Below, one piece after another: positions 78 through 56,319 of a DNA stretch of 56,319 nt (within the stretch, counting starts at the first letter, position 1; each line of letters starts with the position of its first letter). Where the stretch lies: IMG/VR virus record IMGVR_UViG_3300020478_000009, positions 1 to 56,319 of that record, one strand, 5' to 3'. The position numbers and the translations under genes are program-made. This stretch comes from a virus. Under the pieces are notes generated by a model. That model searched no databases. It saw only the letters and a program-made list of their open reading frames with translations, and was not told the DNA's origin.

Positions 78-266
78 GAACTTTGCGGTGACATATTCTA
101 CGGTCATAGTGACGGATTGTTTTACGTTAAGGAAGCAGGAACACCAACACCTAAAGAACCTACTCACAAGATGAGCGAGACAGTTGATGTGCCTGACAAC
201 TTAGGTGAAGCAGTTATTGAAGCGGCTGAAGAATGTCCCGGAGAATGTATTTTTGTTGAGCCTTAA
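27..266 (+). CDS. Small ferredoxin (actinobacterial 3Fe-4S/4Fe-4S type)
   Basis: A 79-residue single-electron carrier, probably cytoplasmic. The cluster motif is C10-x2-D13-x2-C16 with C70-P71 near the C-terminus, the arrangement of short actinobacterial ferredoxins that partner P450s and other reductases. Asp at the second ligand position permits a 3Fe-4S cluster or an Asp-ligated 4Fe-4S cluster. Extra cysteines lie at C20 and C74. The start follows AAGGAGG at 17-23. Across the circle it lies 8 bases downstream of the late exported-protein gene, so it should be expressed late. Its 3' end overlaps the convergent methyltransferase gene by 3-4 bases. No reductase or oxygenase partner is encoded here, so it presumably serves a host enzyme. 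The fold call is firm; the partner is unknown. Confidence 0.85.
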   Translation: MKVWIDQDLCTGDGLCEELCGDIFYGHSDGLFYVKEAGTPTPKEPTHKMSETVDVPDNLGEAVIEAAEECPGECIFVEP

Positions 267-1159
267 ACAGTCATTAACTTTTTTTTCATAAAAGCAATAT
301 GCTTAGGTGTGCTTCCACAACATGCACCTATGATTGTTAAGCCTTCTTTTATGACTTCAGCAGCTTGTTCTGCCATGATCTCAGGTGTTCCACTATAAAC
401 AAGATCAGCACCATGCCATTCAGGGACACCAGCATTAGGTTTAAAAACTATAAGGCAATTATAACCAGAGTAGTTTTCACAAACACTTCTCATCATTTTT
501 ATAGCATTTTTTGTATCTTCCAGACTAGCTCCACAATTAGCCCCAATTCCAAGAAGATTATAAGACTCAATTAAATCTGCTTGTTGAAAACCGCTAACAC
601 CCATCATTGTATGGCCTGCTGTGTCATAGCTCATTGTTGCAACAAGTGGCAAATTTGTAACTTGACGAATACCTTTTATAGCCGCTTGAATTTCTTTCAA
701 ATCACTAAAAGTCTCTAGCCATAAAATATCTACTCCACCCTCAACTAAACCTATAGCTTGAGTTTTATAAGCATCTGTTACTTCCTCTGGTGTAAGAACA
801 CCTAAAGGTTCTAACAATCCCCCTGTCGGGCCAAGGGAACCCGCTACAAAAGCCTCTCTGTCTAAAACATCTACTGCTCGCCTAGCTATTTCTGCCGCTG
901 ACTTGTTGATTTCTATAACACGATCATCTAATTCATGTAAAAGCAACCGAAACTTGTTACCACCAAAAGTGTTAGTTAAAACAATGTCTGAACCAGCGTT
1001 TAAATATCCTTCGTGGACTTTATAAACTTTTTCTTTATCATGTAAATTTAATGCTTCTGGTGCCATCCCTGCTTCTAGCCCAGAATTAAAAAGTTGTGTC
1101 CCCATTGCACCGTCAGCTAATAAATAACCTTGTTTCTTTAATAATTCTTTTATAGTCAT
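263..1159 (-). CDS. Homocysteine S-methyltransferase (auxiliary metabolic gene)
   Basis: A 298-residue Zn-dependent methyltransferase that would move a methyl group to homocysteine to make methionine, the SAM precursor. The TIM-barrel start motif D-G-A-M-G-T is at residues 16-21. The zinc ligands are all present: C209 in G-A-N-C-G, and C280/C281 in G-A-C-C-G-S-T-P. Length matches stand-alone enzymes of the MmuM/BHMT type rather than full MetH; the methyl donor (S-methylmethionine, betaine or other) cannot be told from sequence. It is the last gene of the leftward operon, with its ATG touching the stop of the phosphoesterase gene. It looks intact. Its likely value to the phage is methionine/SAM supply for the two encoded DNA methyltransferases, which is inference. 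Confidence 0.88.
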   Translation of the reverse strand: MTIKELLKKQGYLLADGAMGTQLFNSGLEAGMAPEALNLHDKEKVYKVHEGYLNAGSDIVLTNTFGGNKFRLLLHELDDRVIEINKSAAEIARRAVDVLDREAFVAGSLGPTGGLLEPLGVLTPEEVTDAYKTQAIGLVEGGVDILWLETFSDLKEIQAAIKGIRQVTNLPLVATMSYDTAGHTMMGVSGFQQADLIESYNLLGIGANCGASLEDTKNAIKMMRSVCENYSGYNCLIVFKPNAGVPEWHGADLVYSGTPEIMAEQAAEVIKEGLTIIGACCGSTPKHIAFMKKKLMTV

Positions 1160-12172: not shown

Positions 12173-12814
12173 ATGACAGCAAAATTATTTTCAGCCTTAA
12201 CAGCTTTTATGGCAATGTTTAATACTTGTACTGGACAAATTGCCGAAACGCCGGGAGTCGCTCACATAAATGAGCCTGTAGTGACCCACACAGCGATCAC
12301 AGACTCTTCTTCAGTAGAACGCACTCCTATCCCTCTTTATCACCAGCAGGCTTTCAGAACAGCTATAGAACGCCCTCAGGAGCCAATAGATTTAAACGGC
12401 TACGGTAGATGGTTAAAAGCACAGGGGAAACTGGAAGAATGTCCTATAAATAAGCCCTGTGAAATTGATCCTGAGCTTTATATAGAGCAATTACCAACTC
12501 TGGAAGAACTGGTTAACTGGTTTTTCCCTAAATGGTCTGATCGTCAACTGTTTCTAAGGATAGCTTTTTGCGAGTCGAGTGCTAAACCTACAGATAAGTA
12601 TTCAACAGCGGTTAATAAATCTAGTGGAGCTTCAGGCTGGTTTCAACACTTACCAAAATTTTGGTTAGAACGAACCAAAAAAAGCGAATATTTTGATGGT
12701 TTTCATATTCTTGATCCGATTGCGAACGTAGGTATGGCGGCTTGGATTTATTTTAATTTGCCGGGCGGTAGTAGTCATTGGTATCCCAGTCGTTCATGTT
12801 GGGAGAAGCAATGA
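12173..12814 (+). CDS. Lysozyme/transglycosylase-like exported protein
   Basis: A 213-residue protein with a short hydrophobic N-terminus (signal-like, about 1-20) and a C-terminal lysozyme-like domain. F-C-E134-S-S-A-K-P carries the probable catalytic Glu; S-G-A-S-G-W-F-Q-H and D-P-I-A-N-V-G-M-A-A-W-I-Y-F complete the SLT/Rpf-like fold. It would cut peptidoglycan glycan strands. It lies in the early DNA-metabolism operon, 38 kb from the lysis genes, so it may remodel the wall earlier in infection or act as a virion factor. Confidence 0.7.
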   Translation: MTAKLFSALTAFMAMFNTCTGQIAETPGVAHINEPVVTHTAITDSSSVERTPIPLYHQQAFRTAIERPQEPIDLNGYGRWLKAQGKLEECPINKPCEIDPELYIEQLPTLEELVNWFFPKWSDRQLFLRIAFCESSAKPTDKYSTAVNKSSGASGWFQHLPKFWLERTKKSEYFDGFHILDPIANVGMAAWIYFNLPGGSSHWYPSRSCWEKQ

Positions 12815-13791
12815 GTCCTGCATGGGGTTGTGTACCACCTGTGGATAAACCATATAAACATGGCTCTTTTTGCACAGGCTACGGCGGTTTAGATATGGCT
12901 ATTGAAGAGTTTTTTGATGCTGAAACTGTTTGGTATTCTGAAATAGAAGCATCTTGTAATACGTTGTTAGAGCAACATGGATATAGAAATAATTTAGGTG
13001 ATTTAACAAAAATAGACTGGAACGAGGTAGAACAAGTAGATATTATGTCTGCTGGTTTCCCTTGCCAGCCGTTTAGTATCGCAGGCTCAAGGAAGGGTTT
13101 TAATGATGAAAGAGCAATCTTTGAATGGATCGCGGACGGTATTAGCATTTTACGACCAAGAATTGTCGTGTTGGAGAATGTCGGAGGCCTCCTTACTCTT
13201 GGAGGAACCAGCGTTGTTGGATTACTTACCCGCATCGGGTATGACTGTAGATGGAGCGTTGTTTCCGCTTCCGAAGCCGGAGCGCCACACCAACGAAGAA
13301 GATGGTTCTGCATTGCAGAGGCGAAAAACTTTATTGCCTACACCGATGGCACACGACCACAAAGACACAGGATTAGCTCCATCACAGGAGAACAGGGGGA
13401 CACGGACACTTCCAGTGGTACTACATTTGCTACCAACACCGCTAGCACTCGGCTCGAACGACAGCGGTTTAGCTCCAACACAACTTCGAGGAAACTTTCA
13501 ATCAACTTCGGCAGTGCTACGGAAAATAGCGAACAACCAGACTTCGTGTGGGGAAAATACGAAGGAGCCATTAGAAGATGGGAACACATTATTGGGAGAT
13601 TGGCTCCATACCCAGTAGCTGAGAGAGGAGTTAATCCAGCGTTTACAGAATGGATGATGGGTTTACCTGAAAATCATGTGTGTAATCGAGGTTTATCAAG
13701 AGCAAAAGAATTAAGGATGCTTGGCAACGGTGTGGTTCCTCAGCAGGCGCTTTTGGCTTTAGAGATGTTGTATGACTGGAGATGCGACTAA
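12811..13791 (+). CDS. dcm: DNA (cytosine-5) methyltransferase, copy 1
   Basis: A 326-residue C5-cytosine methyltransferase. SAM motif F-C-T-G-Y-G-G-L-D-M, catalytic G-F-P-C85-Q-P-F-S, V-L-E-N-V and Q-R-R-R-W-F are all present, and the C-terminal motif L-G-N-G-V-V-P-Q-Q completes the fold. The target-recognition stretch (about 175-245) is Ser/Thr-rich and shares its DNA with a second reading frame. The start overlaps the upstream stop (ATGA). It would modify phage DNA against host restriction. A diverged paralogue follows directly at 13791. Confidence 0.9.
   Translation: MSPAWGCVPPVDKPYKHGSFCTGYGGLDMAIEEFFDAETVWYSEIEASCNTLLEQHGYRNNLGDLTKIDWNEVEQVDIMSAGFPCQPFSIAGSRKGFNDERAIFEWIADGISILRPRIVVLENVGGLLTLGGTSVVGLLTRIGYDCRWSVVSASEAGAPHQRRRWFCIAEAKNFIAYTDGTRPQRHRISSITGEQGDTDTSSGTTFATNTASTRLERQRFSSNTTSRKLSINFGSATENSEQPDFVWGKYEGAIRRWEHIIGRLAPYPVAERGVNPAFTEWMMGLPENHVCNRGLSRAKELRMLGNGVVPQQALLALEMLYDWRCD
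13106..13618 (+). CDS. Overprinted gene inside dcm copy 1
   Basis: A 170-residue open frame in the +1 frame of dcm. It starts M-K-E-Q and follows AAGGAAGGG (13089-13097). Landmarks are S-C-W-R-M-S, G-M-T-V-D-G-A-L and two L-L-P-T-P motifs. The same order appears at the same offset inside the second dcm (14056-14484), and I recall similar S-W-R-T-S-Q ... L-P-T-P sequences associated with phage Dcm genes. Function unknown; possibly a specificity or helper protein. It could also be a relic of an ancestral in-frame recognition domain. Confidence 0.5.
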   Translation: MKEQSLNGSRTVLAFYDQELSCWRMSEASLLLEEPALLDYLPASGMTVDGALFPLPKPERHTNEEDGSALQRRKTLLPTPMAHDHKDTGLAPSQENRGTRTLPVVLHLLPTPLALGSNDSGLAPTQLRGNFQSTSAVLRKIANNQTSCGENTKEPLEDGNTLLGDWLHTQ

Positions 13792-14630
13792 TGAATGAAT
13801 CACTAACTCACGGCTCTTTTTGTACAGGCTATGGAGGGCTTGACATGGCTGTAGAGGAATTTTTTGGAGCTTCAACTGTCTGGTATTCTGAAATAGACTC
13901 AGCGTGTAATAAGCTTTTAGCTAAATATGGTTATGAAACAAATTTAGGTGATTTAACAAAAATAGACTGGGATAAGGTAGAGCCTGTCGATATCATGTCG
14001 GCTGGTTTTCCTTGCCAACCTTTTAGTTTTGCAGGAGAAAGAAAAGGAGAAGAAGATGAAAGAGCAATTTTCCAGTGGATCGCTGACGGCATTAGCGTTC
14101 TTCGACCAAGAATCGTCGTGTTGGAAAATGTCGCAGGAATCCTTAATCTCGGAGGACCATCAGTCCTTGGAGCTATTGCCAGCTTGGGGTATGACGCAAG
14201 ATGGGGCATTGTACGGGCTTCCGATGTCGGAGCACCACATCAGCGACAAAGATGGTTTTGCGTTGCTAACGACACCACAAGCGTCAGAGAACATCCGGGG
14301 CAGACCGAAAAGATTCGAGGAGAGAGTACACAAGGCGAAAAAAGAGTACCGGTACGATTTAGCAGACCAGATAGTCTACATAGCGATTTTGAATGGGGGC
14401 GATATGGGCCTGCTATTAAACGATGGGAAGGCGTTTTGGGAAGGTCGGCTCCAGAACCCTGCACAAACGTCAATGACAGATTGATAAATAGTTCTTTTTT
14501 GGAATGGATGATGGGTTTACCTGAAAATCATGTATGCAATCAGGGGTTAAGCACATCTCAAGAGTTGCACGCCTTAGGTAATGGCGTAGTTCCCCAGCAG
14601 GCTTATCATGCTTTGGAGTTGTTGGTATGA
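13791..14630 (+). CDS. dcm: DNA (cytosine-5) methyltransferase, copy 2
   Basis: A 279-residue paralogue of the preceding gene, sharing the N-terminal F-C-T-G-Y-G-G-L-D-M, catalytic G-F-P-C75-Q-P-F-S, V-L-E-N-V, H-Q-R-Q-R-W-F and L-G-N-G-V-V-P-Q-Q. It is 47 residues shorter, nearly all lost from the target-recognition region, so the two enzymes probably methylate different sites. I start at the ATG of TAATG (13791), 9 bases after TGGAG. A second frame (14056-14484) lies inside it. Confidence 0.9.
   Translation: MNESLTHGSFCTGYGGLDMAVEEFFGASTVWYSEIDSACNKLLAKYGYETNLGDLTKIDWDKVEPVDIMSAGFPCQPFSFAGERKGEEDERAIFQWIADGISVLRPRIVVLENVAGILNLGGPSVLGAIASLGYDARWGIVRASDVGAPHQRQRWFCVANDTTSVREHPGQTEKIRGESTQGEKRVPVRFSRPDSLHSDFEWGRYGPAIKRWEGVLGRSAPEPCTNVNDRLINSSFLEWMMGLPENHVCNQGLSTSQELHALGNGVVPQQAYHALELLV
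14056..14484 (+). CDS. Overprinted gene inside dcm copy 2
   Basis: A 142-residue open frame, +1 relative to dcm copy 2. Its ATG is 5 bases after a perfect AAAAGGAGA (14042-14050), hard to explain as chance inside a methyltransferase gene. It shares with the copy-1 frame M-K-E-Q, L-A-F-x-D-Q-E, S-C-W-K-M-S, L-P-A-x-G-M-T-x-D-G-A-L and L-L-T-T-P-Q-A. The C-terminal part is charged and helical. Function unknown. Confidence 0.55.
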   Translation: MKEQFSSGSLTALAFFDQESSCWKMSQESLISEDHQSLELLPAWGMTQDGALYGLPMSEHHISDKDGFALLTTPQASENIRGRPKRFEERVHKAKKEYRYDLADQIVYIAILNGGDMGLLLNDGKAFWEGRLQNPAQTSMTD

Positions 14631-22106: not shown

Positions 22107-23438
22107 GTGACTGACCTTATAGATACTTTTGCTGAGAACGAAATTAAAAAAGCGACCTCCACTGATTTTATGGAGATCGGTTCTTCTGGTTTACACGTTT
22201 ATGACGGACAAGTAAGAGAAGAGTTTCTAACTCAGCTTCGTGGAAGAAACGCTTACAAGACATATCGGGAGATGCGTGACAACGATCCTGTTATTGGAGC
22301 GGTGCTTCAAGCTATAACTATGTTGATGCGCTCAGTTGAATGGCAGGTTGAACCTGCTGATCCTGAGGACCAGAAAGCGGCTGATGTCGCAGAGTTCTGT
22401 GGTAGCTGTCTAACGGACATGAGTCAAACATGGGAAGATATGCTCGCTCAGATAATGACTTACCTTACTTACGGCTGGTCATATTTTGAGATTATCTACA
22501 AATACCGTAAAGGCTGGAATGAGACAGGGGATCGTTCCCGGTATGACGATGGGATGATCGGTTGGCGAAAGCTTGCACCACGCGCTCAGGACACTTTGGA
22601 ACGCTGGGAGTTAGATGAGAACGGCGGAGTTCAAGGCATGTACCAGATGAACCCTGTGTCCGGTAAAGGACAGGTTCTTATTCCTATTGAGAAAGCTTTG
22701 CTGTTTAGAACATCTAGTGCTTTGAACAACCCTGAAGGCAAATCGGTTTTAAGAAACGCTTACACTTCTTACTATTTTAAAAAACGAATACAAGAGATCG
22801 AAGCTATCGGTATTGAACGTGACCTTGCAGGGCTACCTATCGCATACGTGCCACCTCAACTACTTTCAGATAACGCTACAAGCGAAGAGACAGCGGCTTT
22901 AGGTGAAATAAAAAAGATTATTCGTAACATTAGGCGTGACGAGCAGGAAGGCGTGGTCTTTCCGCTGGCTTACGATCCTGAGACAAATAACCTTGCTTAC
23001 GATTTAAAGCTTCTCTCGACTGGTGGTGATCGTCAGTTCGACACAGATGCGATCATAGGTAGATACGATCAGCGCATGGCGATGACGATGCTCGCTGATT
23101 TCATTCTTTTAGGACACGAAAAAGTAGGGACTCAAGCCTTGTCTGTTTCTAAGGTCGCTTTGTTCAGCCAAAGCTTGAACGCTTACCTAGATGGAATAGC
23201 GGCAGTATTTCAGAATCACGCATTCCCTAGATTGTTGAAGATCAACAACATTGATGCGAATTTGACTCCCAGTCTTACTCACGCACCAGTAAGAAACGTG
23301 GACTTGAAAGAACTCGGCGAGTATGTCAGCAAACTCACCGGTTCAGGAGCCACGCTATTTCCTGATGATCAGCTTGAAGCTTACTTGAGAGAGGTTGGCG
23401 GTTTACCAGTAAGCAGTGATGCTGAATCGGTTGACTAA
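22107..23438 (+). CDS. Portal protein
   Basis: A 443-residue portal of the Mu gp29/DUF935 type: N-A-Y-K-T-Y-R-E-M-R-D-N-D-P-V-I-G-A-V-L-Q-A-I near residue 45-67, W-Q-V-E-P-A-D, a helix-rich wing and stem, and a C-terminal region with L-I-P-I-E-K-A-L-L-F-R. It forms the dodecameric channel for DNA entry and exit. GTG start, predicted leaderless. The stop overlaps the MuF gene start (TAATG). Confidence 0.88.
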   Translation: MTDLIDTFAENEIKKATSTDFMEIGSSGLHVYDGQVREEFLTQLRGRNAYKTYREMRDNDPVIGAVLQAITMLMRSVEWQVEPADPEDQKAADVAEFCGSCLTDMSQTWEDMLAQIMTYLTYGWSYFEIIYKYRKGWNETGDRSRYDDGMIGWRKLAPRAQDTLERWELDENGGVQGMYQMNPVSGKGQVLIPIEKALLFRTSSALNNPEGKSVLRNAYTSYYFKKRIQEIEAIGIERDLAGLPIAYVPPQLLSDNATSEETAALGEIKKIIRNIRRDEQEGVVFPLAYDPETNNLAYDLKLLSTGGDRQFDTDAIIGRYDQRMAMTMLADFILLGHEKVGTQALSVSKVALFSQSLNAYLDGIAAVFQNHAFPRLLKINNIDANLTPSLTHAPVRNVDLKELGEYVSKLTGSGATLFPDDQLEAYLREVGGLPVSSDAESVD

Positions 23439-26400
23439 TGCCGCTGACTATAGGGCGTTCTCGCCGGTCAGGTTTCGCTAAAACTGTTGTTAAAATCCCG
23501 CGCAAGCAGGTAGCTGGACAACCGGGGTTAGAGCCTGTAGACGCTCCTTTAACTCCATTAGAGAAAAAAGTAGCTCGTATTTTTGTTGAGGCTTTAACTT
23601 TCACACCCCGGCAAATATCCAGACTATTAGAAGAAGATGAAACTGTAGGAGCGTTAACACCTTTTTTAGAGCATCTTGAACCTGCTCGCAAAGAACTATC
23701 TGACGCTTTAATGGAACAACTCGATGAGTCCGGGGCTTTCTTCTGGAATGAACTTGTTGATCAGCTTAAACGTAAACCTGATCCCTCATCAGTTAATTTC
23801 ATTGCTAAAAACCAAATCAGAAAAGAGATTGATCCTGAAGACGTAACAGTAGTGATGCCTACAGGGGCAGAGTTCACCAGTAGTTTCTCTAAACGCACAC
23901 CACGCGGTAAACGCTGGGCTGATAACGAATCAGCGAGACTAATAACTAACATCGCTGAAGAAACAAGAGAGAACCTGCAAGACGTTATTGCTTCTGCTAC
24001 CGGGCGTGGGGGCAGGCAACGAATGATGACTTTACTGGGAAACGTTTTAGAAAACGCTCCTGCGGGTATTGACTCTGGGAATGTTCTCACAAAGTTTCAA
24101 TCTGAAGTCTCACCGGCTGTCGCAGGGCTTACATTCAAACAGCATAATGCTGTAATCAATACAGCTAATAAAGCTTTTGATGATGCTTTAGCTAAAGGCT
24201 TGCCGTTTAATAAAGCTGTTGAAGCGGCTGAGAAAGAAGCTTTAGCTCACGGTAAACGTGCGCGTGAATATCGAGCAAGAATGATTTCACGTACTGAGAT
24301 GATGGAAGCTTCAAACAGGGGAAAGCTCGAAGCGGCGAAACAAGCCGCTGAAGCTGGAATGTTTAACCCTCACAGGGCAGGTAGACAATGGGTTACTTCT
24401 ACTTTCGATGTTTGCGTTACTTGCGAACCTTTGCATGGGAAAGTTGTTGCGTTTGAAAGTGGAACCTTCCCAGCGAAATACAAAGTTAGCGGGAACTGGG
24501 TAGAGGAACCCCACGATTTACCTCCGGCTCATCCAAATTGTCGATGCACTTGGACACTGGTTTACGACACCGTAGTTCCTCCTACTGCTACAGAGACAGG
24601 TGTTTTAACTCCTCCAAAAGATGTTCCATTAGAGTTGCTTAACCGAGCGTGGGCTGAAGCAGGCAAGCTCGCTCGTTCTGTAGCTTCAGTACAAGACGAA
24701 GTTACTGGAGTGATGGTAAGTGTCGCTGACGACATCGGCGCAGATATGTATGGGTTGCAACACGCAACAAAAACAGAAGCTTCTCTAGCTCGTAAAATCA
24801 CAACAGATTTCACAGAAGAAGTAGCTAAAGATCCGACACTTACTGTAGAAGCTGTAGCTGAGGACATTGGAGATGCGCTTAGGTTTACGATGATCGCTGA
24901 TGCTGAAAATTACACGGATGATGTGATGGCGGCGCTTCGAGATTTAGAAGCCCGTGGTTACACGTACAAGAAGGCTCCTAAGAATTTTTGGCGAGTTGAT
25001 AATCTGAAAAATCCGTACAACGGAATTAACGTGAATATGCGTACACCTACTGGGCAAATAGTGGAAATTCAGTTTCATACCCCTGAAGGTATCGCTATGA
25101 AAAACAGGATTCATCCTCTTTATGAGAGACAGCGAGCTATTGGTGTTACTCAAGAATTGAAAGATGAGATCGCTGAAGAAATGGCTGAGATGGTTTCAGT
25201 GTTGGATTATCCGGATGATGTAACCGATTTGCGGTTCTTCCCTGATGAAGAAATCAAGTATCGTTTAGAAACTGAAGATGACATTGTTGCACGTTTTGGT
25301 GGTAAGTGGCCTGAAGGATCAATGGATGCTTACACGGATGCTGACGGCAACTGGTGGGAGATGCGTGAAACCCTGCATGAGAACATAATCGAAGAAGGAT
25401 TGTCGAAAGCTACACCTGTTGAAGAACCGATAGTGCATTTCATGGGAGGAGGCCCTGCATCCGGTAAAGGCACAGCGATTAGGCAAGGACTGATAGATGT
25501 CCCTGACAACATCGTGGTTGTTGACGCTGACGAGATTAAAGATGCTTTACCTGAATATAAAGCTTTGATTGATGACAGGTCATCGAGAGCGGCGGCGTAT
25601 GTGCATGAGGAAAGTTCGTATTTGTCGAAAGAAATGTTCCAAGAGTCGATTGATAGTGGAAGAAACACTCAGCTTGACGGTACAGGAGATTCTTCTATAG
25701 AGAAGCTTCGCTCTAAAGTCGCATCAGCTAGAGAAGCTTCATCAGCGCAAGGCGGAACTAGAGTGATTGCTGATTACATAACTATTGACACGGAAGAAGC
25801 TGTTAAACGAGCAAGAAGTCGAGCAATTCGCACAGGTCGTTCAGTCCCAGAGTCGGTTGTTCGTGAAACACATGCAAGTATCAGTAGGATATTCCCTGAT
25901 ATTCTTGATGAGAATTTGTTTGATGACATTAAGCTTTGGGATACAGCGTTTGATCCACCGAAGCTGATTTTACGTAAAGTTGATGGTGTTCTTGAAATTT
26001 ATGACGAAGCGGCTTATGAACGTTTCTTGTTGAAGAACCCTGATTATCCCGGTGCTGGTATCAAACCGGGAATTGAGCCGATTATTGACAGTAAGAGCCG
26101 TGTTTATTTAACGATTGATGAACAGTATGATCCGCTTCGACAGTCGCAAGTTCACGAACCTTTTTATGAAGAGAAACTGGCTCAAGGCGTTCCTACCGAT
26201 GAACCTGATGTAGTGATCTTGGGAGGAGGCCCTGCGTCTGGTAAAGGTCATTTATTAGATAGAGACATTATTGAAAAACCTGAAGGTCATATTGTTGTTA
26301 ATCCTGATGACGCTAAAGCAGTCATACCTGAATATAAACAAATTATCGAAAATGGTGACAGTTGGGCTTCTACTTATGTTCACGAAGAATCTTCTGACAT

Positions 26401-28159
26401 GGCTCAAGAGCTAATGGCAAGAGCGCTAGTAGATGAAAGCATCCCAGTCATTTTAGATGGAACTGGAGATTCAACTTACGAAAAGTTAACGATCAAAGTT
26501 AATACAGCACGACAAAGAGCTAAAGGTGGAAGAGTTCGAGGGGAGTATGTCACATCAGATATTGATGTCGCTATAGAGAGAGCGGCAATACGGGCTAAAA
26601 GAGAAGGTCGTGATGTTCCTGAAGGAGTAATCAGAGAGACTCATGTGAATGTTTCTAAAGTTTTCCCTAAAGCGGCTGATGACGATTTGTTTGACGAGTT
26701 GCGTTTGTATGACACTAATAGTGGTGAGCCTGTTTTGATTTACGAGAAGATTGATGGTGTTGAAAACATTATTGACCCGGAAGCTTACGAACGGTTCTTA
26801 ATGAAGAATCCTGATTATACTCCACCTGCGTCTGAGACAATAGAATCTTTGCGGTCTATTACTGAAACATTGTCAAATATGGAAGATGACTTGGGCATTT
26901 CTCTTCTAGTAGATGATGCCGGTAATTATGCTGGCACACCTGCATATTATGCTGATGATGTGCCTGTTCGTGTAGAAACAGGTACGAGCTATGCAGATGA
27001 GGTAGAAGTAGTGGGAAGTTTCAAAGAGCAGAAAGAAACTCTTGATGTCGCTTTGGAGATGGTAGATAGTGCGTTTGCTCCACCTACAGGTGGCTTGTCG
27101 CTTTACTGGGATAGGAGACCAAAGAAAGTTGAGTTTCGTTACACTCCAACTAAACCTAAAGGAAAAGACGGTTTAGGTGGTTCGTATAACAAAAAGAAAT
27201 ACCCAGACAGGCCTAAACGTGTAGCTAAACCTGCACGTATAAAAAAGATGATTCCGGAGGTTACCTCGAATTTAGACGAATGGGCAAAACAACGATCATA
27301 TGCACTTGGTGAACCTATAGCGGCATTAGATGTGGCTACTGGTCTTCCCGCAACTGTAAATGGCAAAATTGCTTACGTTCACGACAATATGGCAGAACAA
27401 GCTAAACAATACAGACACGTTGCGACACGATTAGAAGAACTCAATAAGCGGGCTATGCAGGACTCGGCTTTGTTTGAACTTTATGGTTATGAGAGTGCTG
27501 AAGAAATGCTGGAAGAGTATTACAGCTACTGGTACGCACAAGCTGAACGTTTAGAAGAAATTGATGTATATGATCGTGGATACATCGGGGAGTCTTTCCG
27601 TTTCATCAGGCTCCGACCGGGAACTAAAGGCAGTCGAACAAACGCTCTTGTGCATGAGATAGGACACGATTTTGATTACATGCAAGAAATAGAACTTGTC
27701 TTAATTAAAAACAAAGAAAAGATGCAACTCTCGCCAAATGATAGCAACATAGAAATTATTTTTGATTTGTATAAGAGAGGCAAAATTAATAAAGCGTCAG
27801 TTGGAGAGCAGGGCTTGGCTTACATTGAGTTCATGGAAAACGTTGTTGAGAGCAAGGCTTACAAAAAGTTACTTTCACAAGAAGTTCAGGACACGATGTT
27901 GAACGCAGGAATGTCGCAAGCGGAAATATCTGCTTACCTACAATACGCTACCAGTCCAAAAGAAGTTTGGGCTAGAGCATTTAACCAGTGGACTACAACA
28001 CGACATGGGCGTAATGCACCTGACGCAGTAGAAGATATGCTAGTCGAATCTTTGCCATCGTTTAATAACATTGGTTTTCAGTGGGAACAAGAAGATTTTG
28101 ATATAATGGTAGCACCATATTTAGAGAAAATTTTTAAAGCAAACGGGTGGGTTGAGTAA
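23438..28159 (+). CDS. MuF head protein fused to RelA/SpoT-like, two zeta-type kinase and zincin domains
   Basis: A 1573-residue multi-domain minor head protein. About 200-375: MuF/SPP1-gp7 head morphogenesis domain (S-R-T-E-M-M ... C-V-T-C-E-P-L-H-G ... H-P-N-C-R-C-T-W). About 430-590: RelA/SpoT-like fold (G-D-A-L-R-F-T, Y-N-G-I-N, E-I-Q-F-H-T). Two zeta-toxin-type kinase domains with Walker A G-G-G-P-A-S-G-K-G at 670-678 and 929-937, each with L-D-G-T-G-D-S and R-E-T-H, 259 residues apart. C-terminal zincin: H1406-E-I-G-H1410 with S-P-K-E-V-W-A-R-A downstream. MuF proteins enter the capsid and can carry toxins delivered with DNA, so this is a likely packaged effector. Which domains are active is unknown. 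Confidence 0.82.
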   Translation: MPLTIGRSRRSGFAKTVVKIPRKQVAGQPGLEPVDAPLTPLEKKVARIFVEALTFTPRQISRLLEEDETVGALTPFLEHLEPARKELSDALMEQLDESGAFFWNELVDQLKRKPDPSSVNFIAKNQIRKEIDPEDVTVVMPTGAEFTSSFSKRTPRGKRWADNESARLITNIAEETRENLQDVIASATGRGGRQRMMTLLGNVLENAPAGIDSGNVLTKFQSEVSPAVAGLTFKQHNAVINTANKAFDDALAKGLPFNKAVEAAEKEALAHGKRAREYRARMISRTEMMEASNRGKLEAAKQAAEAGMFNPHRAGRQWVTSTFDVCVTCEPLHGKVVAFESGTFPAKYKVSGNWVEEPHDLPPAHPNCRCTWTLVYDTVVPPTATETGVLTPPKDVPLELLNRAWAEAGKLARSVASVQDEVTGVMVSVADDIGADMYGLQHATKTEASLARKITTDFTEEVAKDPTLTVEAVAEDIGDALRFTMIADAENYTDDVMAALRDLEARGYTYKKAPKNFWRVDNLKNPYNGINVNMRTPTGQIVEIQFHTPEGIAMKNRIHPLYERQRAIGVTQELKDEIAEEMAEMVSVLDYPDDVTDLRFFPDEEIKYRLETEDDIVARFGGKWPEGSMDAYTDADGNWWEMRETLHENIIEEGLSKATPVEEPIVHFMGGGPASGKGTAIRQGLIDVPDNIVVVDADEIKDALPEYKALIDDRSSRAAAYVHEESSYLSKEMFQESIDSGRNTQLDGTGDSSIEKLRSKVASAREASSAQGGTRVIADYITIDTEEAVKRARSRAIRTGRSVPESVVRETHASISRIFPDILDENLFDDIKLWDTAFDPPKLILRKVDGVLEIYDEAAYERFLLKNPDYPGAGIKPGIEPIIDSKSRVYLTIDEQYDPLRQSQVHEPFYEEKLAQGVPTDEPDVVILGGGPASGKGHLLDRDIIEKPEGHIVVNPDDAKAVIPEYKQIIENGDSWASTYVHEESSDMAQELMARALVDESIPVILDGTGDSTYEKLTIKVNTARQRAKGGRVRGEYVTSDIDVAIERAAIRAKREGRDVPEGVIRETHVNVSKVFPKAADDDLFDELRLYDTNSGEPVLIYEKIDGVENIIDPEAYERFLMKNPDYTPPASETIESLRSITETLSNMEDDLGISLLVDDAGNYAGTPAYYADDVPVRVETGTSYADEVEVVGSFKEQKETLDVALEMVDSAFAPPTGGLSLYWDRRPKKVEFRYTPTKPKGKDGLGGSYNKKKYPDRPKRVAKPARIKKMIPEVTSNLDEWAKQRSYALGEPIAALDVATGLPATVNGKIAYVHDNMAEQAKQYRHVATRLEELNKRAMQDSALFELYGYESAEEMLEEYYSYWYAQAERLEEIDVYDRGYIGESFRFIRLRPGTKGSRTNALVHEIGHDFDYMQEIELVLIKNKEKMQLSPNDSNIEIIFDLYKRGKINKASVGEQGLAYIEFMENVVESKAYKKLLSQEVQDTMLNAGMSQAEISAYLQYATSPKEVWARAFNQWTTTRHGRNAPDAVEDMLVESLPSFNNIGFQWEQEDFDIMVAPYLEKIFKANGWVE

Positions 28160-28374
28160 TGGTTTTACCTAAGTTTATGTCAACAGAAGAAGCCGAAGAG
28201 GCTTTAGGAAACGCGCCTAAGTATGATTTAGTTATGGATGATGAAGACACAGTTGAGTTCGGAGAATCTATGTCAAGCTTTTTTAGCTCACATGAAGAAA
28301 GACTAGAACTTGTTGAACGAGGAGTAATCATTTCTGCTTATGATGCTTTTCCTTATTCGCCTGACGATGAGTGA
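28159..28374 (+). CDS. Small acidic protein after the MuF effector
   Basis: A 71-residue, strongly acidic protein (M-D-D-E-D-T-V-E-F-G, S-P-D-D-E end) whose ATG overlaps the effector stop (TAATG). Not recognised. Its place and charge would suit an inhibitor that neutralises one of the effector domains in the producing cell, but a structural or regulatory role is equally possible. Confidence 0.6.
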   Translation: MVLPKFMSTEEAEEALGNAPKYDLVMDDEDTVEFGESMSSFFSSHEERLELVERGVIISAYDAFPYSPDDE

Positions 28375-28705
28375 CGTAGCATTAAATTGGTTTATTAACG
28401 AAGCGACCGGTGAGCGAGTAGTTTTAAGAAACCAACAAGGAGAAGACTGGAAAAAAGATTCCGCTTGTAAAGACTCTTCAGTTAAAACATTCTTCTTAGA
28501 GAAAGGTTCTACTGGTGTAGTAAGAGCTAGGGAGATATGTGCCGATTGTCCAGTCAGAGTTGATTGTCTTGATTATGCGTTGCGACATGGTGAGAAGTGG
28601 GGAATCTGGGGAGGGTTGACTTCAACTGAGCGAAGGCCCTTCCGTAGGTTGCAGTTAGAGAACCCTGAACAGGATTTAAAGCCGATCTGGCAAAAAATTT
28701 TTTAA
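28367..28705 (+). CDS. whiB: WhiB-family Fe-S transcription factor
   Basis: A 112-residue protein with the four conserved cysteines C34, C58-x2-C61 and x5-C67 that hold a 4Fe-4S cluster, and the G-I-W-G-G (79-83) turn with a basic helix R-R-P-F-R-R-L. WhiB proteins occur only in actinobacteria and their phages and bind the sigma factor to steer transcription. I start at 28367 (ATGA overlap with the acidic gene). It may shift host RNA polymerase to phage promoters. Strong host-lineage marker. Confidence 0.93.
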   Translation: MSDVALNWFINEATGERVVLRNQQGEDWKKDSACKDSSVKTFFLEKGSTGVVRAREICADCPVRVDCLDYALRHGEKWGIWGGLTSTERRPFRRLQLENPEQDLKPIWQKIF

Positions 28706-50468: not shown

Positions 50469-51218
50469 ATGAACATTCCTACGACTAAAAGCACAGTTCA
50501 ACTGGACTTATTGCATCCACGATTCGTGACAAGACTTGAAGCTTTTTTTCAAGATCCGCAAATCAAAGGCAAGGTAGCTGTTTCATCCGGTTGCAGAAGC
50601 TACGCCGATCAGAAGTATTACTATGATCGTTACAAGTCAGGTCGTAGCACCATTCTTGCGGCTAATCCTGATAGGCGTTTCGGTGAGAAAGCTTTAGATG
50701 GTTTGGGTATATGGCGAGGCTCATGGCACATGCAACAGCTTGACGGCTGGTGTTACGCAGTGGACCTCGCTCAAATGGATAAGTCGATTAGCAAACCGGA
50801 AATAAATCGCATAGCCACAATGTATGGTGTCCAGCCAACTGTTGCTTCTGAGTGGTGGCATCACCAGCCTCGTAAATCAACTGACTGGTTTGAAGCTCCA
50901 GCTTTGAAGGGTGAATCAACTGAAGCCCCTGATGCTCCTGAACCTAAGATTGATTGGGCGGCGATAGCGGCGGCGATTAAGAAGCAACGTCAACAGGTTA
51001 GAAAAACTCCGTTGACTAAAGGCTCAAAAGGTGACGCTGTTAAAACCATTCAGACTTGCATGGGAAATCAGGGAATTAGATGCGGTGTAGCTGACGGTAT
51101 CTTTGGTCGTAAGACAGCTACAGCGGTTAAACAACTTCAAAAGAACCATCGTCTACCTGTAAATGGTATTGTTGACATTAAGACCTTTGATGTTTCTTTT
51201 AAAGAAAGAGGAAGATAA
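50469..51218 (+). CDS. Endolysin: M15-type peptidase with peptidoglycan-binding domain
   Basis: A 249-residue wall-degrading enzyme. Residues about 1-140 form a VanY/M15 zinc peptidase (S-G-C-R-S, S-W-H87-M-Q, A-V-D99-L-A and E-W-W-H131-H), which cuts D-Ala-containing peptide bonds. About 180-245 is a PG_binding_1 domain (L-T-K-G-S-K-G-D-A-V-K-T-I-Q, D-G-I-F-G-R-K-T-A). No signal peptide, so release needs the holin downstream. Confidence 0.82.
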   Translation: MNIPTTKSTVQLDLLHPRFVTRLEAFFQDPQIKGKVAVSSGCRSYADQKYYYDRYKSGRSTILAANPDRRFGEKALDGLGIWRGSWHMQQLDGWCYAVDLAQMDKSISKPEINRIATMYGVQPTVASEWWHHQPRKSTDWFEAPALKGESTEAPDAPEPKIDWAAIAAAIKKQRQQVRKTPLTKGSKGDAVKTIQTCMGNQGIRCGVADGIFGRKTATAVKQLQKNHRLPVNGIVDIKTFDVSFKERGR

Positions 51219-51562
51219 TGACTGATCATGCGTGGCTTAGTGTCACAAATAATTCAAACGTAACTGAAGTGCGTTCACTTCAGGAAGCGTTGGTTGCTAA
51301 AGGACACCGTATCGGTATAGATGGGCGATTCGGTATTAGCACTCAGCGTTGTGTGGTTGAGTTTCAGAACGAAAACAATCTCACGCCTGATGGTAACGTT
51401 GGTCCTGCAACTTGGGCCGCTCTAGAGGGTGGCGCTAAGAAAAAGAAAGCAGAACCTAAAGTAGAAGCTGAAGAAAAAGCTGAGGAGAAAAAACCTGCAA
51501 CTAAGAAAGCCCCAGCTAAGAAAGCTCCAGCTAAAAAAGCTCCAGCTAAGAAAGGCTCCTGA
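51218..51562 (+). CDS. Peptidoglycan-binding protein with K-A-P-A-K repeat tail
   Basis: A 114-residue protein: one PG_binding_1 domain (V-R-S-L-Q-E-A-L, I-D-G-R-F-G-I-S-T, G-N-V-G-P-A-T-W) followed by an acidic then histone-like tail with three K-K-A-P-A repeats. A second lysis or wall-anchoring factor; the tail may bind DNA or teichoic polymers. Overlaps the endolysin stop (TAATG). Confidence 0.75.
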   Translation: MTDHAWLSVTNNSNVTEVRSLQEALVAKGHRIGIDGRFGISTQRCVVEFQNENNLTPDGNVGPATWAALEGGAKKKKAEPKVEAEEKAEEKKPATKKAPAKKAPAKKAPAKKGS

Positions 51563-51831
51563 TGTTAGGAAACCTTAAATTAGATTGGGGACAAATCCGG
51601 GATGTGGCGGAAAGAGCCATATCCACTTATGCACAAACGGTAGTTGGTCTTTATTTGGCTGGTGGTTTAACAGAAATTTCTATTTCTGGAGTAAAAACTT
51701 TGGCTATTGGTGCGTTACCTGCGGCATTGTCTATCGTAAAGAGCTATGCTTGTAGTATTCTTCCGATTGGGGATGCTTCGGCTTCGCTCTTAAAGGCTAG
51801 TCCGAATAATGCGGAACTACCGGAAGACTAA
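51562..51831 (+). CDS. Holin-like membrane protein
   Basis: An 89-residue protein with hydrophobic segments at about 24-40 and 45-68 and an acidic C-terminus, right after the endolysin genes. Y-A-Q-T-V-V-G-L-Y-L-A-G-G-L resembles actinophage holins. Would open the membrane for the endolysin. Confidence 0.7.
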   Translation: MLGNLKLDWGQIRDVAERAISTYAQTVVGLYLAGGLTEISISGVKTLAIGALPAALSIVKSYACSILPIGDASASLLKASPNNAELPED

Positions 51832-51887: not shown

Positions 51888-52322
51888 ATGGACAGTAAAG
51901 AGCTTACAGAAGCATTAACTAACATTCAGGATAAGCTGAATGAGATCATTCCCTGTCGTTGTGCGCCTGAAAAAGCCCCGGAACAAAGCAAAATAGAACA
52001 GGCAACGTCTTTAATTGACAAAATTAAAGATAATATCGCATATATTGTTGGTTTGCCTGCAACTCTGGGCGGGGCCTTTGGGTTCCTTTGGGATTCATCG
52101 GCTGAAGAAGCCGAGTTGACACACAAGGTTACAATGCTTGAAGAAGCTGTTGCTGGCCTTAAAGCGGAAAATGACTTACTAGGTGGAGGAACAAAGAATT
52201 TCTCTATTGATATGAGTTCAGCCCCGGGAGGTTCCCTGACGGTAATAGTTATAGCAGGAGTAATCGCTGTAGCTGTTGGGTTTCTGATTGTTTATCAGAA
52301 GCGCCGTAGAAGCCATTCTTGA
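51888..52322 (+). CDS. Second lysis-region membrane protein
   Basis: A 144-residue protein with a cysteine pair (C-R-C) near residue 23, a hydrophobic segment at about 53-68, a coiled coil (about 72-96) and a C-terminal membrane helix (V-I-V-I-A-G-V-I-A-V-A-V-G-F-L-I-V) ending in basic residues. A co-holin or spanin-like role is plausible. Its stop overlaps the next TTG start. Confidence 0.6.
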   Translation: MDSKELTEALTNIQDKLNEIIPCRCAPEKAPEQSKIEQATSLIDKIKDNIAYIVGLPATLGGAFGFLWDSSAEEAELTHKVTMLEEAVAGLKAENDLLGGGTKNFSIDMSSAPGGSLTVIVIAGVIAVAVGFLIVYQKRRRSHS

Positions 52323-55300
52323 AGCGCTGCAGGCTTTTACTGGGTAGATTACTGGGTAATTTACTGGGTTTACTGGGTAATTCAGGCTCTTTATACCCCA
52401 GAGCAGTTAGAAAACCCTATAAAATCAAGAGTTTTGATATACCGGGATGTCCCAGCTCCTCTAAGAGCCTGTCACGGGGGTTAATAGCCTCAGGCGCTCT
52501 AATTGCTCTTCTAAGCGTTTCTTGTGCAGAAGCAACTAAATCTACAAATGTATCAGCTGGGGAAGCCCCAGATGAGCTTGTAGAGCCTGTAGAAGCTAAT
52601 TCTGAAGTTAGTAATACAGAAATTACCACTGGGAAAATAGGAGCTGGAGAAACAGGTTCAGGAGCTGGAGAAACAGGTTCCCAGAACAGGGCTATTCGGG
52701 CTTCTACTGGGTATAAGCCTGTCAAAGATGGCTTTGGTTTCGAGAATTTTGGTGGAGGAGAAGCTCCGGCTGAGTTAACAGTGAACATGACACGCAGATT
52801 TTATGGTGATAATCAAGTCTGTTCAGATGTAACAGACAACGAATGCACACCTTACCCAGTTATTTTACAGCTAATCGCTCAGGCTAACAGGTCAATGCAG
52901 GGAGGCTTATGTGAAGGTTTAACGGTTCTTTCCTTGCGATTAGCTAACGACCTGAAAGCTCTTACAGGCTTTCAAGATGTTGAAGATGTAGCTTCGCTAA
53001 TTAAAGAAGATCCGGCTCTCCTCTCGGAGATTGCTTACTGGTATGTAACCCAGTTTGCTATCGAAGTTCAGCAAGAAGCCGCACAGTTTTTAGAACTTTC
53101 TCCTTTAGCTTTAGCTCGTATTCTTTACGAAGATTTCGCTAAAGCAGAAACTGGTGAACCTTCAGTCGGTTACACGATGGGTATTTACTCTGAGCAAGGA
53201 GGACACGCTGTTACTCCATACAAAGTTGAAACTAATGGAGATATTTGGCGCATTTACATTTACGATTCCAACTGGCCTACAGCTGAAAGATGGATAGATG
53301 TAGATGAAGATGGTTGGAGTTATGCGTTAGCCGCAACTAATCCAACAGAAAAAGCTGAAGCTTGGGGTGGTGGGATTGGCACAATGGAACTCACACCTAT
53401 GACGGTAAGAAATGGGCCGTTCACTTGTGCTTTTTGTCCATCTGATAAAGAAGAAAAATCTGGAACTCTTTTAACTGTTGCCGCTTCAGGTAGCAAGCAA
53501 ATGGCTTTACAGATTGAAACTCCAGAAGGAAACCGTTTAGGGTATTACGATGGTTCTTTTGTAAATGAAATTGAAGGTGCTACTTATCGGTATCTGATTT
53601 CCGGACCTAGCACCGCTGATCCAGTAATGGTTTTTTTACCACCGGGAGTAGATGATTTCAGTGCAGATGTAGACGTTATTGATGTTCCCACTCCGGGAGA
53701 TTCTTCATCGTCTGTCCAATCCTCCCCCTCGATTCCTCAAGAATCGGAGGTCAGTATCCCACCGGAGCAGGAACCTATTACAGAAAATATCACACAACAG
53801 TTTTCATTACTGATTTTAGATGAAGAGAAATCAGTTCAAATTGAAGCTGAGGTAATTGAAGAAGAACCAATTTCTGCGGAGATAACAGGTGAACCGGAGA
53901 TTGCAGAATCTTTAATCAATTTTTCTGAAGAATCTGTAGAGATAGCCGACATTGAAGAAGCGGCAGTCGCTATCGCTGTAGATGCTTTAGAAGTAGAAAT
54001 AGACGTAGAGCAAGGTCAACAGGTGGCTGTCCAATTCGTTCCTGAGCCACCGCCTGTAGTAGAAGCAGGACAACCTGAACCAGTTGTAGAAGCTCCAGCA
54101 ATGTTAGATATTTCTATTGCTGATGACACAGGTGAAGTGCTTGCAGAAGTAGAGGTTGATTTAACTCCTTTCCGTGTTGAGGACAGACAGGAAGAGACAG
54201 AGCTAGAAGAAGAACCTGAACAAGCTCCCATAGTGCTTGCGATTTCGTTTGATGAGGAGATCGGTGAAATAGAACAAGTAGAAGAGTCTATCGAAGCTTG
54301 GGTGGCTTCAGACGCAGAATACTTTCAAGCAATCGTAGAGGATCGGTTAGATGAAGTATTAGGTGAAATTTATGTTGAGGAATTAGAAGAACGAGAAGAG
54401 TGGGAACTTCCTGAAGAATTTTTTGAAGAAGAATTTGATTTATTAGACACGCTATTAGCAGTTGAAGAAGAGTACTGGGAAGATGAACACTGGGAAGAGA
54501 TTGAGTATGACGAGGAATGGTTTGAAGAAATTGAATTAGCCGAAATTGAGTTATTCGGTGTTTACGAAGAAGAAGAGTGGTGGGATGAAGAAGAATGGAT
54601 AGAAGAAGATGAATGGTTTGAAGAAATTTGGATTGAAGAAGAATGGATCGAAGAACAATTTGATCCTGAACAATTATTTGAAAGATTTGAGGAACAAGAA
54701 AATGAAGAATTATTGGAAGAAATTTTTGATGAATTTGAAGAGTTTGAATTTGAAGAAGAAGGAGAAGAAGAACTCCTCGAAGAAGAGTGGTGGTTGGAAG
54801 AACCCGAAGGGCTTCCCGAATCCTTTGAGGAAATAGACTTTGAGGAAGAGTGGGAGGAAGAGTGGAACGAACTTCCTCCTACTACCACATGGATGGAAGA
54901 GTGGGATTTTGACGAGTTCGGTGAAATACCTGAAGATATGCTCGGATGGTCAGACGAAGATTTTGATTTATTTGAAACATTTTTAGATAACACAATAGAA
55001 GAAGAAGAATTAGAAGTCTGGGAGGAAGATCCTTTTCTTAACACTGAGGAAGAATGGGAAGAATGGGAAGATGAGTTTTGGTTTGAAGATTCTGAACTAG
55101 AAGATGATTGGGTAGATGATTGGATAGAAGAGGAGGAAGAAATTGAAGAAGAAGAAGAAACCCCACCACTTGAAGAAGAAGAATGGGAGAGTAACACCGA
55201 AGAAGAAGCTGATGAGTTCAGCGAGCTTGCCGAAATCATAGAGGAGGAATGGGATAATCCTTACGCAGATTGCATAGGCACTTCAGCTTGTGAAAATGCA

Positions 55301-56260
55301 CCAAGCGGTTTTGATAGTTGGGAATCTTGGGAAGCGGCAAACAATCCTAATTATGTAGCACCTGAAGTGGGTGATCCTGATTACATACCACCGCCTCCAC
55401 CTCCACCAGTTTATGTCCCTGTTTATTGGGGTTACAACGATGATTTAATTACTGAAAGATTTAGCGAGAGTAGTGAGTCAACTGTTACGACTGTTTTAGC
55501 TAGAGGCGAAGATGGACATTGGTATGAGACACACACAACAGAAACGACTGTCACAACCACGACTTACACTACAAATGGCACAGAACAATATAGTTGCGTA
55601 GATAATAGTTGTGTTTTATTAGGCACTACTTGGGGAGATGAAACAAGCGCCCAAACGGTAGCGGTAACAACTGCTACTGAGGTTGTACCTGCATCCTGCG
55701 ATCAGGGTGGATTTACTGGTCTAGGTGACTGGTGCATAGTTGATTCCAATAGCCGTAATGACCACGATTGGGTTGCGTTCTCGGTTCCTACCGCCGCTGA
55801 AGAAAACGAAGCCTGCGACTGCACAGATGGCGATGGGCTTATGGATATTCGTATAGACGCTGAAACGAACTTAACCAGAGCGCAGTTCGGGCAGAACAAT
55901 GAATGGGGAGATCCTTATATCTACCTGAACCATGACACAGACTCAGATGACGGCGACCATTCAGGGGATAGGGATGCGATAACAGTTGGTAATCAAATCG
56001 CATACAACGATGACAGCGGTAGAGATTGCGGTAATGCGTGCAGTAATCCACCTAGCACAGCAACCGATCCAGACGAAACACCGAACGTGACGCTCGCTAA
56101 CGGTGATCCTGTCATTGAAAACGTGTCAGATTCTTGGGACTCTCGCATAACAAGAGAACTTTCTGCGGGAGACTATGTAGTACGGGCTTCGGTCTATAAC
56201 AACGCCAATAGCGGATGGTATCGCTTAACAATAAGAGATGCCGATGTTACATACCCATAA
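52319..56260 (+). CDS. Giant exported protein: papain-like domain, Glu/Trp-rich tract, PPC-like domain
   Basis: A 1313-residue protein from TTG 52319; no other start codon lies before the lipobox L-S-V-S-C. Residues about 170-330 suit a papain-like/C39 peptidase: G-L-C198-E-G-L-T, G-G-H296-A-V and Y-D316-S-N-W-P. About 620-980 is almost only Glu, Asp, Trp, Phe, Ile and Leu (E-E-E-W and W-I-E-E repeats), with few Arg or Lys. About 1128-1313 is a beta-sandwich like pre-peptidase C-terminal (PPC) domains, Asp-rich. Probably a secreted or virion-bound surface protein. Last late gene; the ferredoxin follows across the junction. Confidence 0.7.
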   Translation: MKRCRLLLGRLLGNLLGLLGNSGSLYPRAVRKPYKIKSFDIPGCPSSSKSLSRGLIASGALIALLSVSCAEATKSTNVSAGEAPDELVEPVEANSEVSNTEITTGKIGAGETGSGAGETGSQNRAIRASTGYKPVKDGFGFENFGGGEAPAELTVNMTRRFYGDNQVCSDVTDNECTPYPVILQLIAQANRSMQGGLCEGLTVLSLRLANDLKALTGFQDVEDVASLIKEDPALLSEIAYWYVTQFAIEVQQEAAQFLELSPLALARILYEDFAKAETGEPSVGYTMGIYSEQGGHAVTPYKVETNGDIWRIYIYDSNWPTAERWIDVDEDGWSYALAATNPTEKAEAWGGGIGTMELTPMTVRNGPFTCAFCPSDKEEKSGTLLTVAASGSKQMALQIETPEGNRLGYYDGSFVNEIEGATYRYLISGPSTADPVMVFLPPGVDDFSADVDVIDVPTPGDSSSSVQSSPSIPQESEVSIPPEQEPITENITQQFSLLILDEEKSVQIEAEVIEEEPISAEITGEPEIAESLINFSEESVEIADIEEAAVAIAVDALEVEIDVEQGQQVAVQFVPEPPPVVEAGQPEPVVEAPAMLDISIADDTGEVLAEVEVDLTPFRVEDRQEETELEEEPEQAPIVLAISFDEEIGEIEQVEESIEAWVASDAEYFQAIVEDRLDEVLGEIYVEELEEREEWELPEEFFEEEFDLLDTLLAVEEEYWEDEHWEEIEYDEEWFEEIELAEIELFGVYEEEEWWDEEEWIEEDEWFEEIWIEEEWIEEQFDPEQLFERFEEQENEELLEEIFDEFEEFEFEEEGEEELLEEEWWLEEPEGLPESFEEIDFEEEWEEEWNELPPTTTWMEEWDFDEFGEIPEDMLGWSDEDFDLFETFLDNTIEEEELEVWEEDPFLNTEEEWEEWEDEFWFEDSELEDDWVDDWIEEEEEIEEEEETPPLEEEEWESNTEEEADEFSELAEIIEEEWDNPYADCIGTSACENAPSGFDSWESWEAANNPNYVAPEVGDPDYIPPPPPPPVYVPVYWGYNDDLITERFSESSESTVTTVLARGEDGHWYETHTTETTVTTTTYTTNGTEQYSCVDNSCVLLGTTWGDETSAQTVAVTTATEVVPASCDQGGFTGLGDWCIVDSNSRNDHDWVAFSVPTAAEENEACDCTDGDGLMDIRIDAETNLTRAQFGQNNEWGDPYIYLNHDTDSDDGDHSGDRDAITVGNQIAYNDDSGRDCGNACSNPPSTATDPDETPNVTLANGDPVIENVSDSWDSRITRELSAGDYVVRASVYNNANSGWYRLTIRDADVTYP
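52337..52379 (+). repeat. Four TTACTGGGT direct repeats
   Basis: Copies start at 52337, 52349, 52361 and 52370 (spacing 12, 12 and 9), inside the start of the giant exported-protein gene, where they encode L-L-G-R/N/L repeats. Because they sit before the true signal peptide, they may be a protein-binding array or a recent slippage product. Confidence 0.65.
52411..52435 (-). other. Copy of the conserved hairpin element (minus strand)
   Basis: Read on the minus strand this is AAAACTCTTGATTTTATAGG followed by GTTTTC, a close match to the 17070-17096 terminator. Here it lies inside an open frame, 32 bases after the TTACTGGGT repeats, so it may be a shared binding site rather than a terminator. 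Confidence 0.5.
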
Positions 56261-56319
56261 GGAGGATAATGAAAGTTTGGATTGATCAAGATTTGTGTAC
56301 TGGAGATGGTTTATGCGAA
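56243..56319. repeat. Terminal redundancy, right copy
   Basis: Identical to positions 1-77. Contains the end of the giant exported-protein gene, its stop at 56258-56260 and, from 56269, the first 17 codons of the ferredoxin gene, which are the same gene as that at 27-266 and not a second copy. Confidence 0.9.

Follow-up and report, generated by a model that had tools for sequence, protein, structure and literature searches.

An acidic Glu/Trp-rich tract as the possible stalk of a lipoprotein family in marine phages

The acidic tract at 54180-55260 is two things, a conserved module (54281-54553) and a variable segment (54554-55258), and both are part of one large phage lipoprotein. The tract has a somewhat better than even chance of being the stalk of a phage protein that is expressed late and displayed, through a lipid anchor, on the envelope of an infected marine actinobacterium. 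The architecture, variability, replacement, selection and gene linkage were obtained by sequence comparison within a family encoded on more than 90 IMG/VR contigs (four scans of IMG/VR). This widespread marine-phage family has no counterpart in GenBank phages or in the protein-family libraries that were searched: the whole lipoprotein gave no match in Pfam, PHROGs, NCBIfam or PADLOC, and tblastn against 50,697 GenBank phages gave 0 matches.

The window, meaning the whole stretch of DNA analysed, is an IMG/VR virus record of 56,319 nt. An exact 77-bp direct repeat is found at both ends (1-77 is identical to 56243-56319), and the record is therefore most likely a full genome of about 56.2 kb that closes into a circle. 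A PHROG search of the window gave matches for the terminase, portal, major capsid and tape measure proteins, which by homology makes it a long-tailed (siphovirus-type) phage. The WhiB gene at 28340-28705 (PF02467, E 5e-22) and the nearest capsids, which are those of Arthrobacter phages (47-48%), indicate an actinobacterial host. WhiB has been reported in marine Actinomarinales phages as well (PMC7771536).

The genes around the lipoprotein follow the order endolysin, peptidoglycan-binding protein, r1t-type holin, small membrane protein, lipoprotein and ferredoxin. Judged from this order, the lipoprotein ORF would be the last gene of the late operon, just past the lysis genes. A full-length alignment of the family gives the order of the parts as lipobox signal, Thr/Pro linker, 306-amino-acid domain, middle region, acidic module, variable segment, Thr-rich region and C-domain. 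The genes and the parts in the window are as follows.

50469-51218, + strand: endolysin of the lysis cassette (Pfam/PHROG-type family matches)
51218-51562, + strand: separate peptidoglycan-binding protein of the lysis cassette, next to the lipoprotein region
51562-51831, + strand: holin of the lysis cassette (Phage_r1t_holin, PHROG 443)
51888-52322, + strand: partner gene, a 144-amino-acid membrane protein with a C-terminal transmembrane segment and an Arg/Lys tail
52319-56260, + strand: whole lipoprotein gene, 1,313 amino acids, putative TTG start, 4-base overlap with the stop of the upstream gene
52319-52525, + strand: N-terminal signal region with the lipobox-like LLSVSC; the Cys is residue 69 of the ORF (TGC, 52523-52525)
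52733-53650, + strand: conserved 306-amino-acid domain (N-domain), putatively papain-like, with CEGL at 52910, GGHA at 53198 and YDSN at 53261
53651-54280, + strand: acidic middle region rich in beta strands (alignment; AlphaFold2 strands of moderate confidence)
54281-54553, + strand: conserved acidic module of about 90 amino acids, WVASDAEY...YWEDEHW...EEWF (alignments)
54554-55258, + strand: variable low-complexity Glu/Trp (E/W) segment, the proposed stalk (composition, lengths, repeats)
55259-55687, + strand: Cys pair, poly-Pro and Thr-rich region, the Thr part predicted as long beta strands (pLDDT about 76-90)
55688-56257, + strand: C-terminal beta-sandwich (C-domain), PPC/collagen-binding-like by VIA-align, with no Pfam match
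30-263, start repeated at 56269, + strand: ferredoxin-like gene (MKVWIDQDLCTGDGLCEELC), directly 3' of the lipoprotein gene and running on at the window start

The tract had been described in an earlier note as Glu/Trp-rich with hardly any Lys or Arg, and this is correct: the interval lies in frame in the ORF 52319-56260 and encodes residues 621-980. These 360 residues comprise 146 Glu, 30 Asp, 26 Trp, 26 Phe, 5 Tyr, 4 Arg, 1 His and no Lys (40.6% Glu, 7.2% Trp and 7.2% Phe). The expectation, taken from 9,270 residues of the other proteins in the window, is 27 Glu, 6 Trp and 34 Lys plus Arg (binomial log10 p about -68, -9.6 and -10.8, respectively). No other 200-amino-acid stretch in the 22 larger proteins of the window has an acidic share above 29%. 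The DNA was also said to be a long purine-rich strand, which is true to a moderate degree only, with 66% purine, a longest pure purine run of 21 bases and a GC skew of 0.39; the purine bias is caused by the GAA and GAG codons for Glu. The statement that no named domain resembles the tract agrees with Pfam, PHROGs and NCBIfam, where none was found. The tract itself is real, and what had been missed is the large lipoprotein with folded domains on both flanks.

The membrane-protein gene is found upstream of the lipoprotein in all 94 family loci, and in all 23 loci that could be tested the N-domain comes directly after it, some loci being the same contig represented twice; in the relatives checked the pairing is without exception. 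The ferredoxin gene is directly downstream in many relatives too. The membrane partner has conserved KDNIAY, GLPA, GAFGF and LLGGG motifs, and alignment of the relatives places its strongest hydrophobic segment at the C-terminal end, together with the Arg/Lys tail. It matches no known family in scans of Pfam, PHROGs and NCBIfam and had 0 matches in tblastn against the 50,697 GenBank phages. Anchoring of the partner by sortase, suggested by a weak LPXTG_anchor match, was rejected, as no LPXTG motif and no signal peptide could be seen.

A lipobox (LLFAGC, for example) was found by pattern match in 89 of 95 family rows, and the protein is probably lipid-anchored through its N-terminal Cys. The LLSVSC of the window is a weaker pattern match than those of the relatives. 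One phage-type family member, 76% identical, was located on a 3.3-kb contig (L017) of a Phycisphaerae MAG and is probably a mis-binned phage fragment.

The 306-amino-acid N-domain is 74-86% identical to the window in eight close members and about 65% identical at the far end of the family. Its residues C60, H158 and N180 occur in the order of clan CA; the His and Asn are invariant in 30 rows and the Cys is replaced only in the cellular L018. An AlphaFold2 model of the 608 residues that follow the signal and linker at the N-terminal end had a mean pLDDT of 57. With this low-confidence model the three best VIA-align entries were all IdeS/Mac-1 (Z 5.7-5.9), the match at Z 5.9 having 3.3 A over about 98 residues, and two of the next three entries were calpain (Z 4.2). 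The alignment to IdeS and calpain covers the part with GGHA and YDSN. These matches, together with the conserved Cys-Glu-Gly, Gly-His-Ala and Tyr-Asp-Ser-Asn motifs, suggest that the N-domain is a papain-like cysteine peptidase. The spacing of His and Asn in the N-domain (22) is the same as that of His262 and Asp284 in IdeS. IdeS and calpain are the best structural matches, but Z is below 8 over the roughly 98 residues and there is no sequence-profile match, since the N- and C-domain profiles gave nothing significant in a sequence search against solved structures. Foldseek of the N-part against PDB and BFVD gave nothing at E <= 0.001.

Homologues of the N-domain were found in 8 of 140 Myxococcota genomes (L102-L109) with profile E values from 3e-70 to 4e-19. 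They share the lipoprotein-like N-termini and the (C/S)EG, GH(A/G) and YD(N/S)N motifs, but have Ser for Cys in several cases and differ downstream, where they are long, of other sequence and in several cases have Cys-rich repeats. No acidic E/W tract was seen in the parts examined, and scans of family libraries placed these homologues in no named family.

The Thr-rich beta strands and the C-terminal domain were modelled mostly at pLDDT 70-90. The model of the C-domain has the beta-sandwich fold of the PPC/collagen-binding domains, with VIA-align matches to ColG s3b (Z 9.5, 2.7 A over 105 residues) and to the PPC domain of Bacillus anthracis collagenase (Z 8.5). The likeness to the collagenase domains thus extends over 95-105 residues at Z 8.5-9.5; the C-domain differs in being larger, with insertions and only putative calcium ligands, and in having no Pfam match. 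Pfam scans of eight members gave only a weak DUF4493 match below cut-off (E 0.03-0.05). Clostridium perfringens enterotoxin was rejected as a match for the C-part; the long alignments had an rmsd of 18-25 A and the shorter ones reflect the common beta-sandwich and rank below the PPC-like rows. Between the window and L016 the C-domain is 97% identical and the N-domain only 76%, which suggests that the outer C-terminal module has recombined between lineages. The Thr-rich region of L010 (9000-9400), L049 and L076 contains repeats such as TGTEVTGTEVTGTNVTGTEV, resembling a regular, beta-like stalk.

The acidic module is constant in every complete member, and in 54 of 54 testable loci one ORF encodes both it and the N-domain. 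The E/W segment that follows it varies from about 10 to about 580 residues among complete family members. Short landmark motifs were used to place the end of the segment, and in a few divergent members (L016, L022, L026-L028, L088 and L094-L096 among them) these lengths include part of the Thr-rich region. The acidic-aromatic type is retained in most members. It is replaced by PEPEPE in L009-L011, L026 and L076 and by PPTTT in L021, while there is almost no segment in L084, L086, L091-L093 and L098. When the E/W label is mapped on a tree of 49 N-domain rows, 7 changes are needed and well-supported branches force at least 5 of these; the Pro-Glu type has 5 separate origins. By this mapping, the E/W segment has repeatedly been exchanged while the flanks were kept.

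The segment is rich in insertions and deletions, yet its substitutions are under purifying selection. Pairwise dN/dS is 0.08-0.34 for the pairs with usable dS, and lower, 0.01-0.09, in the N-domain. In the window, Trp-Trp distances of 5, 10 or 15 are found in 10 pairs against 6.2 expected (p 0.08). The aromatics had been called regularly spaced; the window alone is only suggestive in this respect, while 10 of 12 members tested singly are significant (p < 0.05), the exceptions being the window and L003 (0.085). Pooling the members gives a lag-5 z of 7.9 for Trp, a value inflated by their relatedness. The purifying selection and the Trp spacing of five together show, at the sequence level, that the segment is not random, nor is it random in the relatives, where the composition is kept. 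Tandem Repeats Finder identified 15-nt tandem units (TGAAGAAGAATGGAT) at 54586-54659, and slippage of pentapeptide units is therefore a plausible origin of the period.

Hydrophobic power in the segment peaks at 70 degrees, the five-residue period (z 4.3), which does not match a beta strand or an amphipathic helix; the helix was rejected because the power shows no rise at 100 degrees (z 1.0). Pentapeptide repeat proteins have the same five-residue periodicity, but their A(D/N)LXX pattern, in which the position two before the central residue is small, is absent from the segment, where Glu is found at those places, and the protein has no Pfam match. A pattern search of the tract for EF-hand-like, RTX and LDL-A calcium motifs found none. 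The tract had also been proposed to fold only when Ca or Mg is bound; in the AlphaFold2 model the segment has a pLDDT of 34-55.

According to the proposed mechanism, the N-terminal Cys, given the conserved lipobox, would tether the protein to the outer face of the cytoplasmic membrane and the papain-like domain would sit near the membrane. The acidic E/W segment would be a solvated, like-charged and extended spacer that reaches across the cell wall or past it, with the Thr-rich beta region and then the calcium-domain-like C-terminal sandwich at its far end. Its length could be tuned by gain and loss of short repeats, both the 15-nt or pentapeptide W-x-E-E-E unit and larger units, and Pro-Glu or Pro-Thr spacers could substitute for it. 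We infer in this way the envelope location, the spacer role, the protease activity and the late expression of the lipoprotein. A segment that varies between folded, conserved flanks favours a stalk, as does the predicted contrast between its low pLDDT and the values of 75-90 in the C-terminal part. The Myxococcota homologues, lipoprotein-like with long downstream regions, point the same way. Pro-Thr and Pro-Glu repeats, which take its place in relatives, are classic extended spacers, and spacers are already known from other phage surface lipoproteins. Against a stalk, a pure spacer does not need 7-12% Trp at every five residues, and for such a spacer the near-total exclusion of Lys and Arg is superfluous; most members keep the acidic-aromatic type. 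A low pLDDT from 22 sequences is no proof of disorder, the lipobox of the window is weak and its start codon putative, and the adjacent module of about 90 residues, conserved in all members and possibly folded, also speaks against a stalk.

The main rival to the stalk takes the acidic-aromatic pattern for a binding surface. Evenly spaced aromatics in a polyanion might engage a cationic or hydrophobic partner, by analogy with acidic-aromatic disordered binding regions perhaps a cationic wall or surface polymer or a protein of an incoming phage; we regard this as unlikely, though realistic. It agrees with the Trp spacing enriched in 10 of 12 members, the 0 Lys and the dN/dS of 0.08-0.34. In Ltp of the Streptococcus thermophilus phage TP-J34, the extracellular repeat domain has negative residues that are reportedly important for its contact with the positively charged end of the tape measure (PMC3952083), which is what makes the binding reading realistic. 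A charge match of the Ltp type was itself rejected here, as the C-terminal end of this phage's tape measure is not strongly positive. The rest of the protein is retained where relatives have PEPEPE, PPTTT or a nearly absent segment, which argues that E/W chemistry is not required, and the earlier proposal that this chemistry is the function itself, through binding of cations, teichoic polymers or hydrophobic surfaces, is so far not supported. This point weighs less if the PPTTT and near-absent proteins do a different job. The pentad repeats could also simply come from 15-nt slippage. A related idea, to which we give a rather low probability, sees the segment as a polyanion patterned by aromatic 'stickers' at roughly five-residue intervals that evolves by slippage of 15-nt units; it would act around infected cells as an extracellular brush or condensate, or else in capturing a specific partner, and related phages would trade stalk chemistries to alter specificity. 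Acidic-aromatic disordered transcription activation domains have a similar mix of residues and low predicted order, but the segment is much longer, built of repeats and part of a putatively extracytoplasmic phage lipoprotein.

Other readings concern the protein as a whole. It is possible, if doubtful, that together with its transmembrane partner it is an accessory of lysis or envelope processing, a membrane-tethered papain-like peptidase that cleaves peptides of the host surface or wall late in infection; that the acidic tract then only keeps the enzyme soluble or spaced is doubtful to the same degree. The position directly 3' of the lysis cassette in the window fits this, as do endolysin and peptidoglycan-binding genes before the locus in L021, L023 and L094-L097 and after it in L039, L059, L092 and L093, the Cys/His/Asn pattern, the papain-fold resemblance and the ever-adjacent partner. 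The fold is however weakly matched (Z 5.9, mean pLDDT 57), Ser replaces Cys in some Myxococcota homologues, and the immediate neighbour genes differ, with ferredoxin following in many loci. It is quite unlikely that the protein is an Ltp-like lipoprotein for superinfection exclusion, displayed on the infected cell to keep other phages from entering. Both are phage lipoproteins with a lipid anchor, a spacer and a functional, variable outer part, the C-terminal modules here seemingly swapped between lineages. In Ltp, from temperate phages, the spacer is rich in serine and the repeat domain small (PMC3952083), and it lacks an E/W tract as well as papain-like and PPC-like domains; only the anchor-plus-spacer plan is in common. 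The present protein shares no sequence with Ltp, is far larger, lies beside late lysis genes rather than in a lysogeny module and has no PADLOC match. Overlapping genes for a transmembrane protein and a lipoprotein adjoining holin and endolysin recall a spanin-like pair bridging two membranes, but this is very improbable: an i-spanin has its transmembrane segment at the N-terminus and the partner at the C-terminus, with a basic tail; the host is predicted to be actinobacterial (WhiB); and the lipoprotein has about 1,300 residues. That the tract is a sequencing or assembly artefact, or a non-coding purine strand read by chance, has a negligible probability, since independent metagenome contigs carry the same tract and the ORF recurs in many of these metagenomes with synonymous-biased divergence.

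Returning to the stalk, the family provides a natural series of swaps (acidic-aromatic, Pro-Glu, Pro-Thr and none) on one conserved head, in which the chemistry and the length of a low-complexity stalk can be tested directly against each other. Should the protein work at the envelope of marine actinobacteria that are abundant and uncultured, it would be a lead to how their phages lyse or guard them.

Some other ORFs of the window were also recorded. The ORF 263-1159 (- strand) has no PHROG match and by eye resembles a homocysteine S-methyltransferase domain (LLADGAMGTQLF), a possible auxiliary metabolic gene. The region 23438-28159 (+ strand) encodes a 1,573-amino-acid fusion that matches minor head/head morphogenesis PHROGs and then polynucleotide kinase. 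Two overlapping tandem ORFs, 12778-13791 and 13782-14630 (+ strand), both start with a HGSFCTGYGGLDMA(I/V)EEFF motif, and the first of them matches DNA methyltransferase PHROGs.
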